From NCBI RefSeq assembly GCF_035609205.1, contig NZ_CP141184.1, positions 1,950,501 through 2,014,500 of the forward strand: a DNA stretch of 64,000 bases, given 5' to 3'. A program made the translations under genes and the position numbers. Shown here one piece after another: positions 60,958 through 63,516 of the stretch. The first letter of the stretch is position 1. Each line of letters opens with the position of its first letter. The notes under the pieces were generated by a model. The model worked only from the letters and a program-made list of their open reading frames with translations, did no database searches and was not told the DNA's origin. The stretch comes from Hymenobacter sp. GOD-10R. Lineage in GTDB: Bacteria > Bacteroidota > Bacteroidia > Cytophagales > Hymenobacteraceae.

Positions 60958-61110
60958 TGTCGTCCTGAAGAAGGAGGAACCTTCCTTTTTTACTGACAAG
61001 GCTTACATAACTCAAACGCCCTTGATCGACCACCTAGGTGGCTGATCAAGGGCGTTTGAGTTATGTAAGCCTGGAACTCAGGAGCGAAAGATCCTGCCTT
61101 CTTCAGGATA
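60958..61110. repeat. Degenerate inverted repeat pair around the thiL terminator
   Basis: A left copy (60958-60983, with tcctgaagaagg at 60963-60974) and a right copy (61088-61110, with ccttcttcagga at 61097-61108) form an inverted pair. Both resemble the repeat that flanks the GIY-YIG gene 430-800 bp downstream (shared TCCTGA and ACCTT/ATCTT ends). They bracket the 72-bp hairpin. Confidence 0.6.
61000..61071. terminator. Hairpin with 28-bp perfect outer arms
   Basis: Outer arms 61000-61027 and 61044-61071 are perfect; the middle 16 bp contains ccacctaggtgg, itself a palindrome. Lies between convergent thiL and the gene at 61140. Shares the core cgcccttgatc/gatcaagggcg with the hairpin at 54400. 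Confidence 0.75.
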
Positions 61111-61139: not shown

Positions 61140-61514
61140 TTAGTCCTCGGGGTAGGGGATATATACGAAGTTGGTAAACTCCTCATCTAGCACGAAGAGG
61201 CAGCAGTACTCATTTGGGTCCTTATAAGTCTGCTCGAAGGCTTCTACATTTTCGGCCGCAATGACGTGCTGCTGCACGAAGAGTTCGAGGTAAGAGGCAA
61301 ATACGTGCCACTCCAGACCTAACTCATCGGCATTCACCAGCAAGCCACCCAGTGGCACTTCTTGGCGAGCAAACACGAAAATCGGATACTTGGAAATGTC
61401 GCGCTTCCGAATCTGCGACGACGCTTCCATCAGCGTATCAGAAACCGTGGCGAAATCCTTGGTGATGGTACCTAGGTATTTACCGTTCAGTTCGGGGGCG
61501 TTGGCGTAGTCCAT
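61140..61514 (-). CDS. Conserved hypothetical protein
   Basis: A 124-residue soluble protein not recognised. The sequence has an alpha/beta pattern, FPVFVFARQE-like PIFVFARQEVPLGGLL, WHVFASYLELFVQQHVI and a C-terminal YCCLFVLDEEFTNFVYIPYPED. There is no signal peptide or known active-site motif. It lies between the degenerate repeat pair and the GIY-YIG element. It is probably a real gene, since the frame is complete and the start is a clear ATG. Confidence 0.6.
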   Translation of the reverse strand: MDYANAPELNGKYLGTITKDFATVSDTLMEASSQIRKRDISKYPIFVFARQEVPLGGLLVNADELGLEWHVFASYLELFVQQHVIAAENVEAFEQTYKDPNEYCCLFVLDEEFTNFVYIPYPED

Positions 61515-61539
61515 TTGGGTGTGCTAATATTGTTTACTG

Positions 61540-61573
61540 TGTCATCCTGAGCTTGCGAAGGACCTTATCACGT
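61540..61573. repeat. Left 34-bp inverted repeat of the GIY-YIG element
   Basis: Perfect reverse complement of 61883-61916; begins tgtcatcctgagcttgcg. It ends 11 bp after the GIY-YIG stop codon. Confidence 0.9.
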
Positions 61574-61584
61574 TCGCTTCTCAG

Positions 61585-61866
61585 TTAAGTAGGCAAGAAA
61601 GTCCAGTCAGGGTTATCATTGGCAATCAATGCTTCCTTCTTTGCCCGCGTCCATCCTTTCAACTCCTTCTCACGGGTAATGGCAGCTTTACTATCGACAT
61701 ACTCTTCGAAATACACGAGATTATAGCAAAAGTAGCGTCCTGCAAATGTTTGGGTAGAACCTCGATTAGCATAATGCTGTGCCATCCTATCAACCAGGCT
61801 ATTAGTAATGCCAATGTAGAGCACTGTCTTCGCCGGGTTTGTCGTAATGTATACGTAGTAGGGCAT
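61585..61866 (-). CDS. Small GIY-YIG nuclease (URI type), inside inverted repeats
   Basis: A 93-residue single-domain GIY-YIG protein. The two signature strands are YVY (4-6) and YIG (17-19). The catalytic arginine is R27 in LVDRMAQH, with H31, and the metal-binding glutamate lies in REKELKGW (E66 or E68), followed by a basic helix ending near NPDW. All key residues are present, so a nuclease activity is possible. There is no own promoter box; it may be read through from rlmD. Perfect 34-bp inverted repeats flank it, which suggests a small mobile or repeat-associated unit. Other small GIY-YIG proteins of this kind are of unknown role. Confidence 0.88.
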   Translation of the reverse strand: MPYYVYITTNPAKTVLYIGITNSLVDRMAQHYANRGSTQTFAGRYFCYNLVYFEEYVDSKAAITREKELKGWTRAKKEALIANDNPDWTFLPT

Positions 61867-61882
61867 CAGGCAGTCGATTGCG

Positions 61883-61916
61883 ACGTGATAAGGTCCTTCG
61901 CAAGCTCAGGATGACA
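61883..61916. repeat. Right 34-bp inverted repeat of the GIY-YIG element
   Basis: Perfect reverse complement of 61540-61573, ending 23 bp before the rlmD stop. No target-site duplication is visible outside the arms. Confidence 0.9.
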
Positions 61917-61938
61917 ACACTTTCTTAGCTAAGGTTGT

Positions 61939-63348
61939 CTATCGCAGCTCCAGCAGCACTACATTTTCCACATGGTGCGTATGCGGGAACATATCCACCG
62001 GCTGCACACGCGTTACTTTGTACGCTTCATCCAGCAACTCTAGGTCGCGGGCTTGAGTGGCGGGGTTGCAGCTCACGTATACGATGCGTGGGGCACGCAT
62101 TTCGAGCAGGCGCTGCACCACGTCCACGTGCATGCCGGCGCGAGGCGGGTCGGTGATGACAACGTCGGGGCGGCCGTGCTCGGTGATGAACTCGGCCGAC
62201 AGCACATCCTTCATGTCGCCGGCGTGGAATTCGGTGTTGGTGACGTTGTTGATTTCGGAGTTTACGCGTGCGTCGGCAACAGCTTGCGCCACGTACTCTA
62301 CGCCGACTACGTGCCTAGCTTGGCGGGCCACGAAATTGGCGATAGTACCAGCACCGGTGTAAAGGTCATACACGAGCTCATTGCCGGTGAGGCCAGCAAA
62401 GTCACGGGCAATTTTGTAGAGACCGTAAGCGCCTTCCGAGTTGGTCTGGTAGAACGACTTTGGCCCGACGCGGAAGCGTAGCCCTTCCATTTCCTCGTGG
62501 ATGTAGGGCTCGCCTTTGTAGCACACCACCTCCAAGTCATGAAAGGTTTCGTTGCCCTTGTCGTTGAGCACGTAGTTGAGTGAGGTGATCTGCGGAAACT
62601 TCTCGTAGATATAATCGAGCAGCGGCTCAATGGCTTGGTGCTGGCGGTAGCACTGCAAAATCACCATCAGGTCACCAGTGTTGGCGGTGCGGATAATTAG
62701 GTTGCGCAGCAATCCCGTTTGCTTCACCAAGTTGCCGAAGCGCAACTCATGCTCGCGGGCGTACTCACGGATAGCTAGCCGAATAGCGTTGCTAGGTTCT
62801 GGCTGCAACCAGCAGTGTTCAATGTCAATGATCTTATCGAAGCGGGAAGGCGTGTGGAAACCCAGCACGCGACGGTCGTACTCCTGCGTCTCGTCTTGGA
62901 TCTGCTCGGCCGTCAGCCAGCCCATGAAGCTGAATGTGTATTCGAGCTTGTTGCGATAATAGGTCAGCGCGGGCGAGTGTTTGATAGGCAACACCTCAGG
63001 AAGCGCTACTTTGCCAATACGCTCCAGCGTATCTTCCACCTGCTGCTGCTTGTAGTGCAGCTGAGTATCGTAGCCGATATGCTGCCACTTGCAGCCGCCG
63101 CACACGCCAAAGTGTTGGCAGAATGGCTGCACGCGCAGCTCGGAGTACTTATGGAAGTGTGTAGGTACAGCTTCCAGAAAGCTCTTCTTGGATTTAGTAA
63201 TACGTAGGTCAACTACGTCGCCGGGGGCAACGCCCGTCACGAAGATGACCATATTGTTGTGGCGCACGAGGCACTTGCCCTCGGCTACCATGTCGGTAAT
63301 TTCGACTTCGCGGAGTGCCTCCGCCGGGATTTTTGATGCTTTGCTCAC
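61939..63348 (-). CDS. rlmD: 23S rRNA (uracil-C5)-methyltransferase RlmD-like
   Basis: A 469-residue SAM enzyme of the TrmA/RlmC/RlmD group. After an N-terminal TRAM domain (EVEITDMVAEGKCLVRHNN, in pieces) comes the Fe-S cysteine set C-x5-C-x2-C (FCQHFGVCGGCKW) with a later cysteine in IEHCWLQ. The methyltransferase part has VYDLYTGAGTIANFVA, in pieces, TDPPRAGMH, and the catalytic cysteine in VSCNPAT. The GTG at 63348 is chosen because an exact -7 box ends 5 bp before it; the open frame goes 47 codons further. Which uracil is modified cannot be read here. Confidence 0.9.
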   Translation of the reverse strand: MSKASKIPAEALREVEITDMVAEGKCLVRHNNMVIFVTGVAPGDVVDLRITKSKKSFLEAVPTHFHKYSELRVQPFCQHFGVCGGCKWQHIGYDTQLHYKQQQVEDTLERIGKVALPEVLPIKHSPALTYYRNKLEYTFSFMGWLTAEQIQDETQEYDRRVLGFHTPSRFDKIIDIEHCWLQPEPSNAIRLAIREYAREHELRFGNLVKQTGLLRNLIIRTANTGDLMVILQCYRQHQAIEPLLDYIYEKFPQITSLNYVLNDKGNETFHDLEVVCYKGEPYIHEEMEGLRFRVGPKSFYQTNSEGAYGLYKIARDFAGLTGNELVYDLYTGAGTIANFVARQARHVVGVEYVAQAVADARVNSEINNVTNTEFHAGDMKDVLSAEFITEHGRPDVVITDPPRAGMHVDVVQRLLEMRAPRIVYVSCNPATQARDLELLDEAYKVTRVQPVDMFPHTHHVENVVLLELR

Positions 63349-63353
63349 GAGGA

Positions 63354-63361
63354 CAAAGGTA
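63354..63361 (-). promoter_or_regulatory. -7 promoter box TACCTTTG, 5 bp before a GTG start
   Basis: Exact TAnnTTTG on the minus strand; TCCTC then the GTG of rlmD. Predicts a leaderless transcript. Confidence 0.65.
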
Positions 63362-63487
63362 ACAACGATTTGCCTCACCCTAGGCCCCATTTCTGGCCTG
63401 CTTTCCCTGGAAAAGCGCTGCATCTTCTGCGTGCACACTGCATCCTTTGCGGGCAACGACGTCTGTCTAGCCAAAAAGGGCATCCAC

Positions 63488-63516
63488 AAAAAAAGCCTCC
63501 CACTTACGCAGGAGGC
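63488..63516 (-). terminator. Terminator of the partial T9SS type B gene
   Basis: 6-bp GC arms (gcctcc / ggaggc) followed on the minus strand by seven T (63494-63488). Confidence 0.75.

Follow-up and report, generated by a model that had tools for sequence, protein, structure and literature searches.

Small GIY-YIG nuclease genes framed by CGTC-like palindromic repeats in Hymenobacter and other bacteria, a candidate pairing of repeat and nuclease

A 93-residue GIY-YIG nuclease gene that lies between perfect inverted repeats, with almost nothing else in between, raises the question whether gene and repeats belong together and, if so, in which capacity. Within the window, the whole stretch of 64,000 nucleotides of Hymenobacter sp. 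GOD-10R that was analysed, the element covers 377 bp (61540..61916). Its left arm (61540..61573, forward strand) is composed of a TGTC tag (61540–61543), the hairpin halves 61544–61552 and 61555–61563, a tail and an inner ATCACGT, and is followed by a spacer of 11 bp (61574..61584) up to the stop codon of the GIY-YIG gene (61585..61866, reverse strand, stop codon included), a spacer of 16 bp beyond the start codon (61867..61882) and the right arm (61883..61916, reverse strand), an exact inverted copy with its TGTC tag facing outward. The arms, 34 nt each and separated by 309 nt, are 100% complementary, and the perfect framing with gaps of 11 bp on the 3' side and 16 bp on the 5' side of the gene, as described in the first-pass annotation, is thus exact in coordinates and complementarity. 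As the arm pattern matches twice in the window and in none of 100 dinucleotide shuffles, the arms are not explained by chance. The neighbouring genes encode a protein of 124 aa that matches no Pfam family (61140–61514) and a protein with a Pfam match to tRNA (uracil-5-)-methyltransferase (61939–63489), presumably an RlmD/RumA-like methyltransferase.

By its domain and its conserved catalytic residues, the encoded protein is a predicted member of the GIY-YIG nuclease superfamily. PF01541 (GIY-YIG) is matched with 59.4 bits (cut-off 22.6; E 4e-16) and is the protein's one Pfam domain; the AF2 model (pLDDT 95.3) displays a bare GIY-YIG domain with UPF0213 protein BH0048 (1zg2) as best PDB match (E 2e-4) and Slx1 and UvrC as the next, weak fold neighbours (E 0.1–0.7). 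Among 29 aligned sequences Y6, Y17, G19, H31, R65 and N85 are invariant, and R27 and E66 are nearly so (at least 90% of the sequences). The presence of the catalytic residues, proposed at the outset, is thereby borne out for Y6, Y17, R27, E66 and N85, which we take to be the Tyr, Tyr, Arg, Glu and Asn of the I-TevI active site. In ten orthologue comparisons dN amounts to 0.09–0.13 with dS saturated in eight, and the other two give dN/dS ratios of 0.04 and 0.08 (dS above 1.5); low dN against saturated or high dS argues for strong purifying selection on the protein. It is encoded by the single small GIY-YIG gene of its genome, two other GIY-YIG matches being located in frames of 506 and 620 aa, both unframed by repeats. 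Small GIY-YIG genes are annotated in the records as GIY-YIG nuclease family protein, hypothetical protein or excinuclease ABC subunit C.

The arms recur throughout the 7.5-Mb genome. The arm core is present in 28 copies, compared with 0 for the reversed control, so the repeat is not single-copy; these matches correspond to 17 places, 11 of which are outward-facing pairs with both cores matching, and six of which retain one matching core only, several with a visibly decayed partner. Ten of the 11 pairs are gene-less, which provides the inverted pairs with and without a GIY-YIG gene that the first-pass annotation had suggested to look for. A gene-less dimer of about 95 bp, CTGTCATCC...GGATGACAG, has a short loop on its inner stem, and it is the position of this loop that the gene occupies in the window element. 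An abutting direct repeat of 2–15 bp, as expected for a target-site duplication, was not found at 134 of 136 distinct dimers. Of another type, GCTGAGC...YCGAAGCATC, the window genome holds 102 copies but no GIY-YIG gene that matches it. The frequent occurrence of TCATCCTGAG repeats in Bacteroidota, put forward in the first-pass annotation, is confirmed for the genus (109 of 120 genomes) and, in the phylum set described below, for related types.

Asked of relatives, the pairing of GIY-YIG gene and repeat holds across the genus, the phylum and other phyla. The window protein is matched in 99 of 120 genomes of the genus, with one to six matches each among the matches listed, and 110 loci were read of at least 150 matched places (E to 3.6e-24). 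A repeat of the form GTCAT-NNN...A[CT]C is found within 300 bp at 109 of these 110 loci and on both sides at 80, counts which are tuned on their own set in that a first finder had missed the GGAC-ending type (72/110 on any side, 47 on both) and was widened. Control windows 600–900 bp off gave 10/110 on any side and 0 on both, and dinucleotide shuffles means of 7.2 and 0.15 respectively. The outermost tag is directed outward in 90/93 cases upstream and 90/96 downstream, and the two sides share the repeat type at 79 of the 80 two-sided loci (permuted mean 24, maximum 37).

Owing to the tuning of the genus counts, the phylum set served as held-out test. At 81 places outside the genus, taken in list order, mostly one per genome, among the matches listed, the finder fixed beforehand detected framing at 77 and on both sides at 65, compared with 13 and 3 in the controls; two of the four misses show, by eye, TGTC-ACTCT...AGAGT-like hairpins. 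Outside the genus the tags face outward less consistently (46:25 and 48:23), and the base before GTC in 293 flanking repeats of this set is T in 205, C in 47, A in 33 and G in 8. A further set of 80 loci, overlapping the genus set, is framed at 78 on any side and at 56 on both (control windows 15/240), and 12 of 13 non-Hymenobacter loci, one of them from the near relative Solirubrum, are flanked by a repeat no more than 400 bp away, on one side or on both, the exception being locus L218. For other phyla, 16 of 33 plasmid records with a GIY-YIG gene were assessed with a generic tagged-hairpin finder, which reported repeats on any side at 13 and on both at 11 (control windows 9/48). Two further loci, of Planktothrix and Spirosoma, carry the GA type of repeat, no framing repeat was found at the Subdoligranulum locus, and the hairpins of Azospirillum, Shinella, Rhizobium, Aeromonas and Neisseria resemble CGTC-tagged repetitive extragenic palindromic (REP) sequences (CGTCATCCCCGCGAAGGCGGGGATCCA and similar). 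The CGTC-REP pattern was matched in six of ten searchable records, gene-adjacent copies included (Azospirillum 8, Sinorhizobium 3, Neisseria 54, Shinella 9, Rhizobium 7 and Photobacterium 92 copies per record), and in none of the other four. The framing in Neisseria says little, because the whole neighbourhood is REP-dense, and in Photobacterium the nearest CGTC-type repeat is located on one side of the gene only. In the Photobacterium record (NZ_CP073579.1) the CGTC REPs form long arrays in which the unit recurs about every 200 bp.

The type of the repeat follows the clade of the enzyme. When the repeat types are placed on a protein tree with 105 rows (five of the 110 loci being without protein; 104 rows are labelled), 13 changes of type suffice, compared with a shuffled mean of 53.5 and 0/200 shuffles as low, a clustering which near-copies favour. 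In 84/104 cases the repeat type is correctly given by the nearest protein encoded in a different genome and in a different neighbourhood; within 24 mixed-type genomes the type is predicted in 44/53 (permuted mean 22.6, maximum 33), and phylum-wide, at identity below 70%, in 30/76 (shuffled mean 8.0, maximum 23). Part of the matching is inheritance, as 92 of 104 loci share a neighbourhood with another. We regard the association and co-diversification of GIY-YIG enzyme and REP as practically certain.

Abundance is also linked with the gene for four of five repeat types. The median copy number elsewhere in the genome, with a matching gene versus none, is 60 versus 16 for the CCT type (p 2e-4), 34.5 versus 3 for GCT (p 5e-4), 7 versus 1 for TCC (p 8e-3) and 75.5 versus 3.5 for GCA (p 4e-5), p values which are rough because related genomes are treated as independent and because the GCT type was split in two, with a fifth pattern added, after a pooled test had given p 0.78, in a comparison where genomes scored as gene-less may carry a matching gene among the unread loci. 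The fifth type (GCTGAGC...YCGAAGCATC), present in 120/120 genomes, has no copy-number link (73 versus 71, p 0.2). The mean rank of the matching type is 0.671 (permuted 0.553, maximum 0.621). Many of the 21 of 120 genomes without a match to the window protein, among the matches listed, still carry repeats in tens to hundreds of copies (for instance 395); as the window genome in addition maintains an unmatched type, repeats outlive or dispense with their own gene, a pattern expected if repeats decay slowly once the enzyme is lost, and equally if the link is looser.

With respect to structure, one gene-less dimer folded as single-stranded DNA reaches −39.6 kcal/mol (z −12.8); the single window arm folds weakly (−1.2 kcal/mol, z 0.28), as do two other arms, and the energy of these three single arms is not better than that of shuffles. 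The hairpin claim consequently rests on the paired stem changes and on GA...GA. In 393 distinct contexts, selected without requiring pairing and with GA on both sides fixed by the search pattern, the three positions of the two stem triplets pair in 97, 97 and 82% of cases compared with 44, 85 and 58% in shuffled contexts, and the triplet pairs co-vary (CCT/AGG, GCT/AGC, GTC/GAC, TCC/GGA, GCC/GGC and TCT/AGA), with the third stem pair broken in the GCA/AGC type. As GA...GA is asymmetric in duplex DNA, this pattern of bases suggests that the recognized form may be a single folded strand with tandem G-A mismatches. Inverted similarity of the dimer flanks extends for about 10 bp (0.458 versus 0.342 permuted, maximum 0.392), which may reflect insertion into terminator-like palindromes or simply the element ends.

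Is the arrangement mobile? Comparison of the window site with 28 relatives, one of them without the rlmD end and one further locus having been dropped as not orientable, detected the GIY-YIG gene at the orthologous site in 8/28 and its absence in 20/28, so that the gene is not fixed at one place in all relatives. A clean empty site, of the kind that the first-pass annotation had suggested to compare, was not found at the eight gene-less relatives read; these harbour, as judged by eye, different small-ORF-like sequence, and no precise junction was drawn because this sequence also differs among them. The slot between the rlmD-like and the 124-aa genes (61515–61938) is hence variable, with mutually different sequence in eight relatives. 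In Azospirillum lipoferum 4B, a gene with two REP dimers is located between sufB and sufC, where eleven other listed Azospirillum records match both flanks in two pieces without the insert (85–86% covered); the sufB–sufC gap measures 617 bp in this strain and 87–129 bp in the three closest records (93.7–94.7% identical). A GIY-YIG gene with REPs is apparently also present just after sufB in the Shinella record, with a REP type different from that of A. lipoferum. At one and the same site in Sphingobium, two records possess gene and REP pair, two a solo hairpin and one neither, and the solo hairpin would also be explained by loss through recombination between short direct repeats inside the arms. 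Over 200 kb, no dimer present in one and absent in the other was found between two genomes of 99% identity (G072 and G073), with one dimer site and some single-arm sites not comparable. At about 89% identity (G012 and G075) several REP sites differ with junctions that are not clean. One orthologous site in this latter pair bears dimers clearly of different types, and at a second site, perhaps likewise with different types, only one flank matches well; it is as if REP types replace each other in place.

Among known repeats, the CGTC-tagged REPs are the closest. A 2013 survey (Di Nocera et al., PMC3733652) describes a superfamily without a dedicated transposase, which its authors consider as perhaps dying out or borrowing enzymes, with hosts such as Azospirillum lipoferum, Novosphingobium aromaticivorans, Sinorhizobium meliloti and Neisseria. 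The two share the tag (CGTC, TGTC or CCTC), stems that start with AT, an arrangement in head-to-head dimers and some host species (PMC3733652). The repeats described here, however, frame GIY-YIG genes, whereas the survey states that its REPs lack a dedicated transposase (PMC3733652), and those of Bacteroidota have an internal GA...GA and often a CTT or CTC tail instead of CCA. The window arm carries the tag in its TGTC variant, and 11 of the 17 places in its genome are head-to-head dimers; its stem, on the other hand, starts with AT and pairs in short blocks around GA...GA instead of the 8–9 bp stem with a loop of 4–5, a form that is present at several alphaproteobacterial loci, and its tail is CTT and not CCA-like as in Azospirillum, Shinella and Rhizobium, where the search pattern itself requires CCA. 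On account of stem and tail, the window repeat is CGTC-like and not a strict member.

The likeness to REP/RAYT (TnpA-REP) systems extends from a gene framed by its own dispersed, inverted palindromic repeats, gene-less dimers and low gene copy number to a repeat type that tracks the enzyme clade and to target duplications not being seen, but the enzyme is of the GIY-YIG and not of the Y1 HUH type and the tag is CGTC/TGTC and not GTAG. To our knowledge, the GIY-YIG fold has no covalent transposition (strand-joining) chemistry, and insertion would therefore need the help of the host. UPF0213 proteins (1zg2, 1ywl), alike in size and fold, are the closest solved relatives, with no link to repeats stated in the available descriptions. 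GIY-YIG homing endonucleases such as I-TevI, and Penelope elements, share a GIY-YIG nuclease tied to mobile DNA, whereas the window element, with its protein of 93 aa only, has no intron, extra DNA-binding domain or reverse transcriptase, and in contrast to insertion sequences and classical MITEs the dimers are without target-site duplication (134/136). In the open-access literature, no paper linking GIY-YIG with REPs was found among the matches listed, nor one containing both 'GIY-YIG' and 'repetitive extragenic palindromic'. The available text of the 2006 GIY-YIG phylogenomics paper (PMC1564403), the 2018 HUH survey (PMC6006769), the 2021 TnpA-REP paper (PMC8266576), the 2025 RepRanger paper (PMC12306157), a Bradyrhizobium repeat paper (PMC5082802) and the 2024 MITE review (PMC10969869) contains no such link, and in that of a Moraxella paper (PMC9465073) RayT and a GIY-YIG gene appear in one table, unlinked.

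The interpretation put forward at first, a nuclease-associated repeat element comparable to REP/RAYT with a GIY-YIG enzyme, gains support from the dispersed copies and from the framing across taxa. We consider it probable that REP and nuclease form a pair in which the gene-bearing copy is the source of the dispersed REPs. The small GIY-YIG protein would recognize the hairpin of its own REP type by the YGTC tag and the AT-NNN stem, with the GA...GA conserved inside the stem of most Bacteroidota repeats seen as a putative part of the recognized hairpin, most likely in a single-stranded or extruded form, and would nick or cut there. Through the break, host repair or replication could place copies of REPs and outward REP dimers at new intergenic positions, and gene-less dimers would spread in trans from the gene-bearing source as REPINs do with RAYT. 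Cleavage of the REP, and cleavage as the driver of spread, are the parts of this model that we infer; that the enzyme acts on its own REP is highly probable, and a role in REP dissemination is rather likely. The gene is ordinary as a gene and not as a system, which is a type-matched pair of nuclease and repeat, working like REP/RAYT without being a member.

The position of the gene in the loop of a single outward REP pair at 24/110 genus loci, the persistence of repeats without gene and the three states of the Sphingobium site would be expected if the enzyme behaved as a homing-like parasite which cuts REP dimers and whose gene homes into them, the REPs being spread by something else. This is unlikely in view of the 26/110 loci with at least two REPs on each side, which do not represent one split dimer, and of the four of five REP types that are commoner with a matching gene, a link that homing alone would not lead one to expect; furthermore, no other enzyme was found framed by these repeats, Y1 being the one tested. 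The strong purifying selection, the action of the weak fold neighbour Slx1 (E 0.1–0.7) on branched DNA and the lack of recent insertions in the 99%-identical genome pair would agree with a domesticated nuclease of structure-specific type, by which hairpins and cruciforms of the REPs are trimmed or resolved and which restrains and co-evolves with the repeats instead of spreading them. Such a role is distinctly improbable for a gene that is carried by the repeats and gained and lost together with them, that is missing from 21/120 genomes and present with one to six matches in others (among the matches listed), and whose matching repeats are more, not less, abundant in its presence.

That Y1/RAYT transposases move the REPs, which merely pile up beside small intergenic genes with the GIY-YIG link being incidental, could be argued from Y1 matches in 83/120 genomes and from somewhat commoner GCT, GCA and second GCT types when weak matches are included (p 0.019, 0.011 and 0.0097). 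Strict Y1 presence, though, is linked to no repeat type (p 0.18–0.8), Y1 loci are unframed, with a repeat within 400 bp at 3/30 and on both sides at 0/30 (among the matches listed; four of the 30 loci are cut by contig ends), genome G002, in which no Y1 match was found, has 316 copies of the CCT type, windows 600–900 bp from GIY-YIG genes hold a REP at 10/110 loci only, and both other GIY-YIG genes of the window genome are unframed, which makes this explanation hardly credible. The window genome itself contains one marginal Y1 match (E 1e-4).

Few bacterial repeats are as common as REPs, of which the GTAG superfamily has a known partner enzyme. For CGTC-type REPs, whose partner is missing, the GIY-YIG enzyme stands as the best candidate, and a framed, type-matched nuclease makes the question directly accessible to in vitro tests, for which a 93-aa protein and an oligonucleotide of 30 nt would serve. 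In a broader sense, and with slightly more in favour than against, small GIY-YIG proteins could be the dedicated enzymes of the whole CGTC/TGTC REP superfamily in Bacteroidota, Proteobacteria and perhaps Cyanobacteria, a second, unrelated REP-mobilizing class in which a hairpin nuclease of 90–100 aa spreads repeats via host repair without strand joining. If true, this would assign a function to a gene annotated merely as GIY-YIG family, hypothetical or excinuclease ABC subunit C, and would represent a case of a repeat spread by a non-transposase nuclease.

A second, different palindrome is located 0.5 kb from the element (61000–61071), with exact 28-bp arms (61000–61027 and 61044–61071) of which no further copy was found within the window. 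The only Rfam matches near the element are sub-threshold, far below the cut-off, and fall at this palindrome, which is itself flanked by diverged TCCTGAAGAAGG-like repeats.
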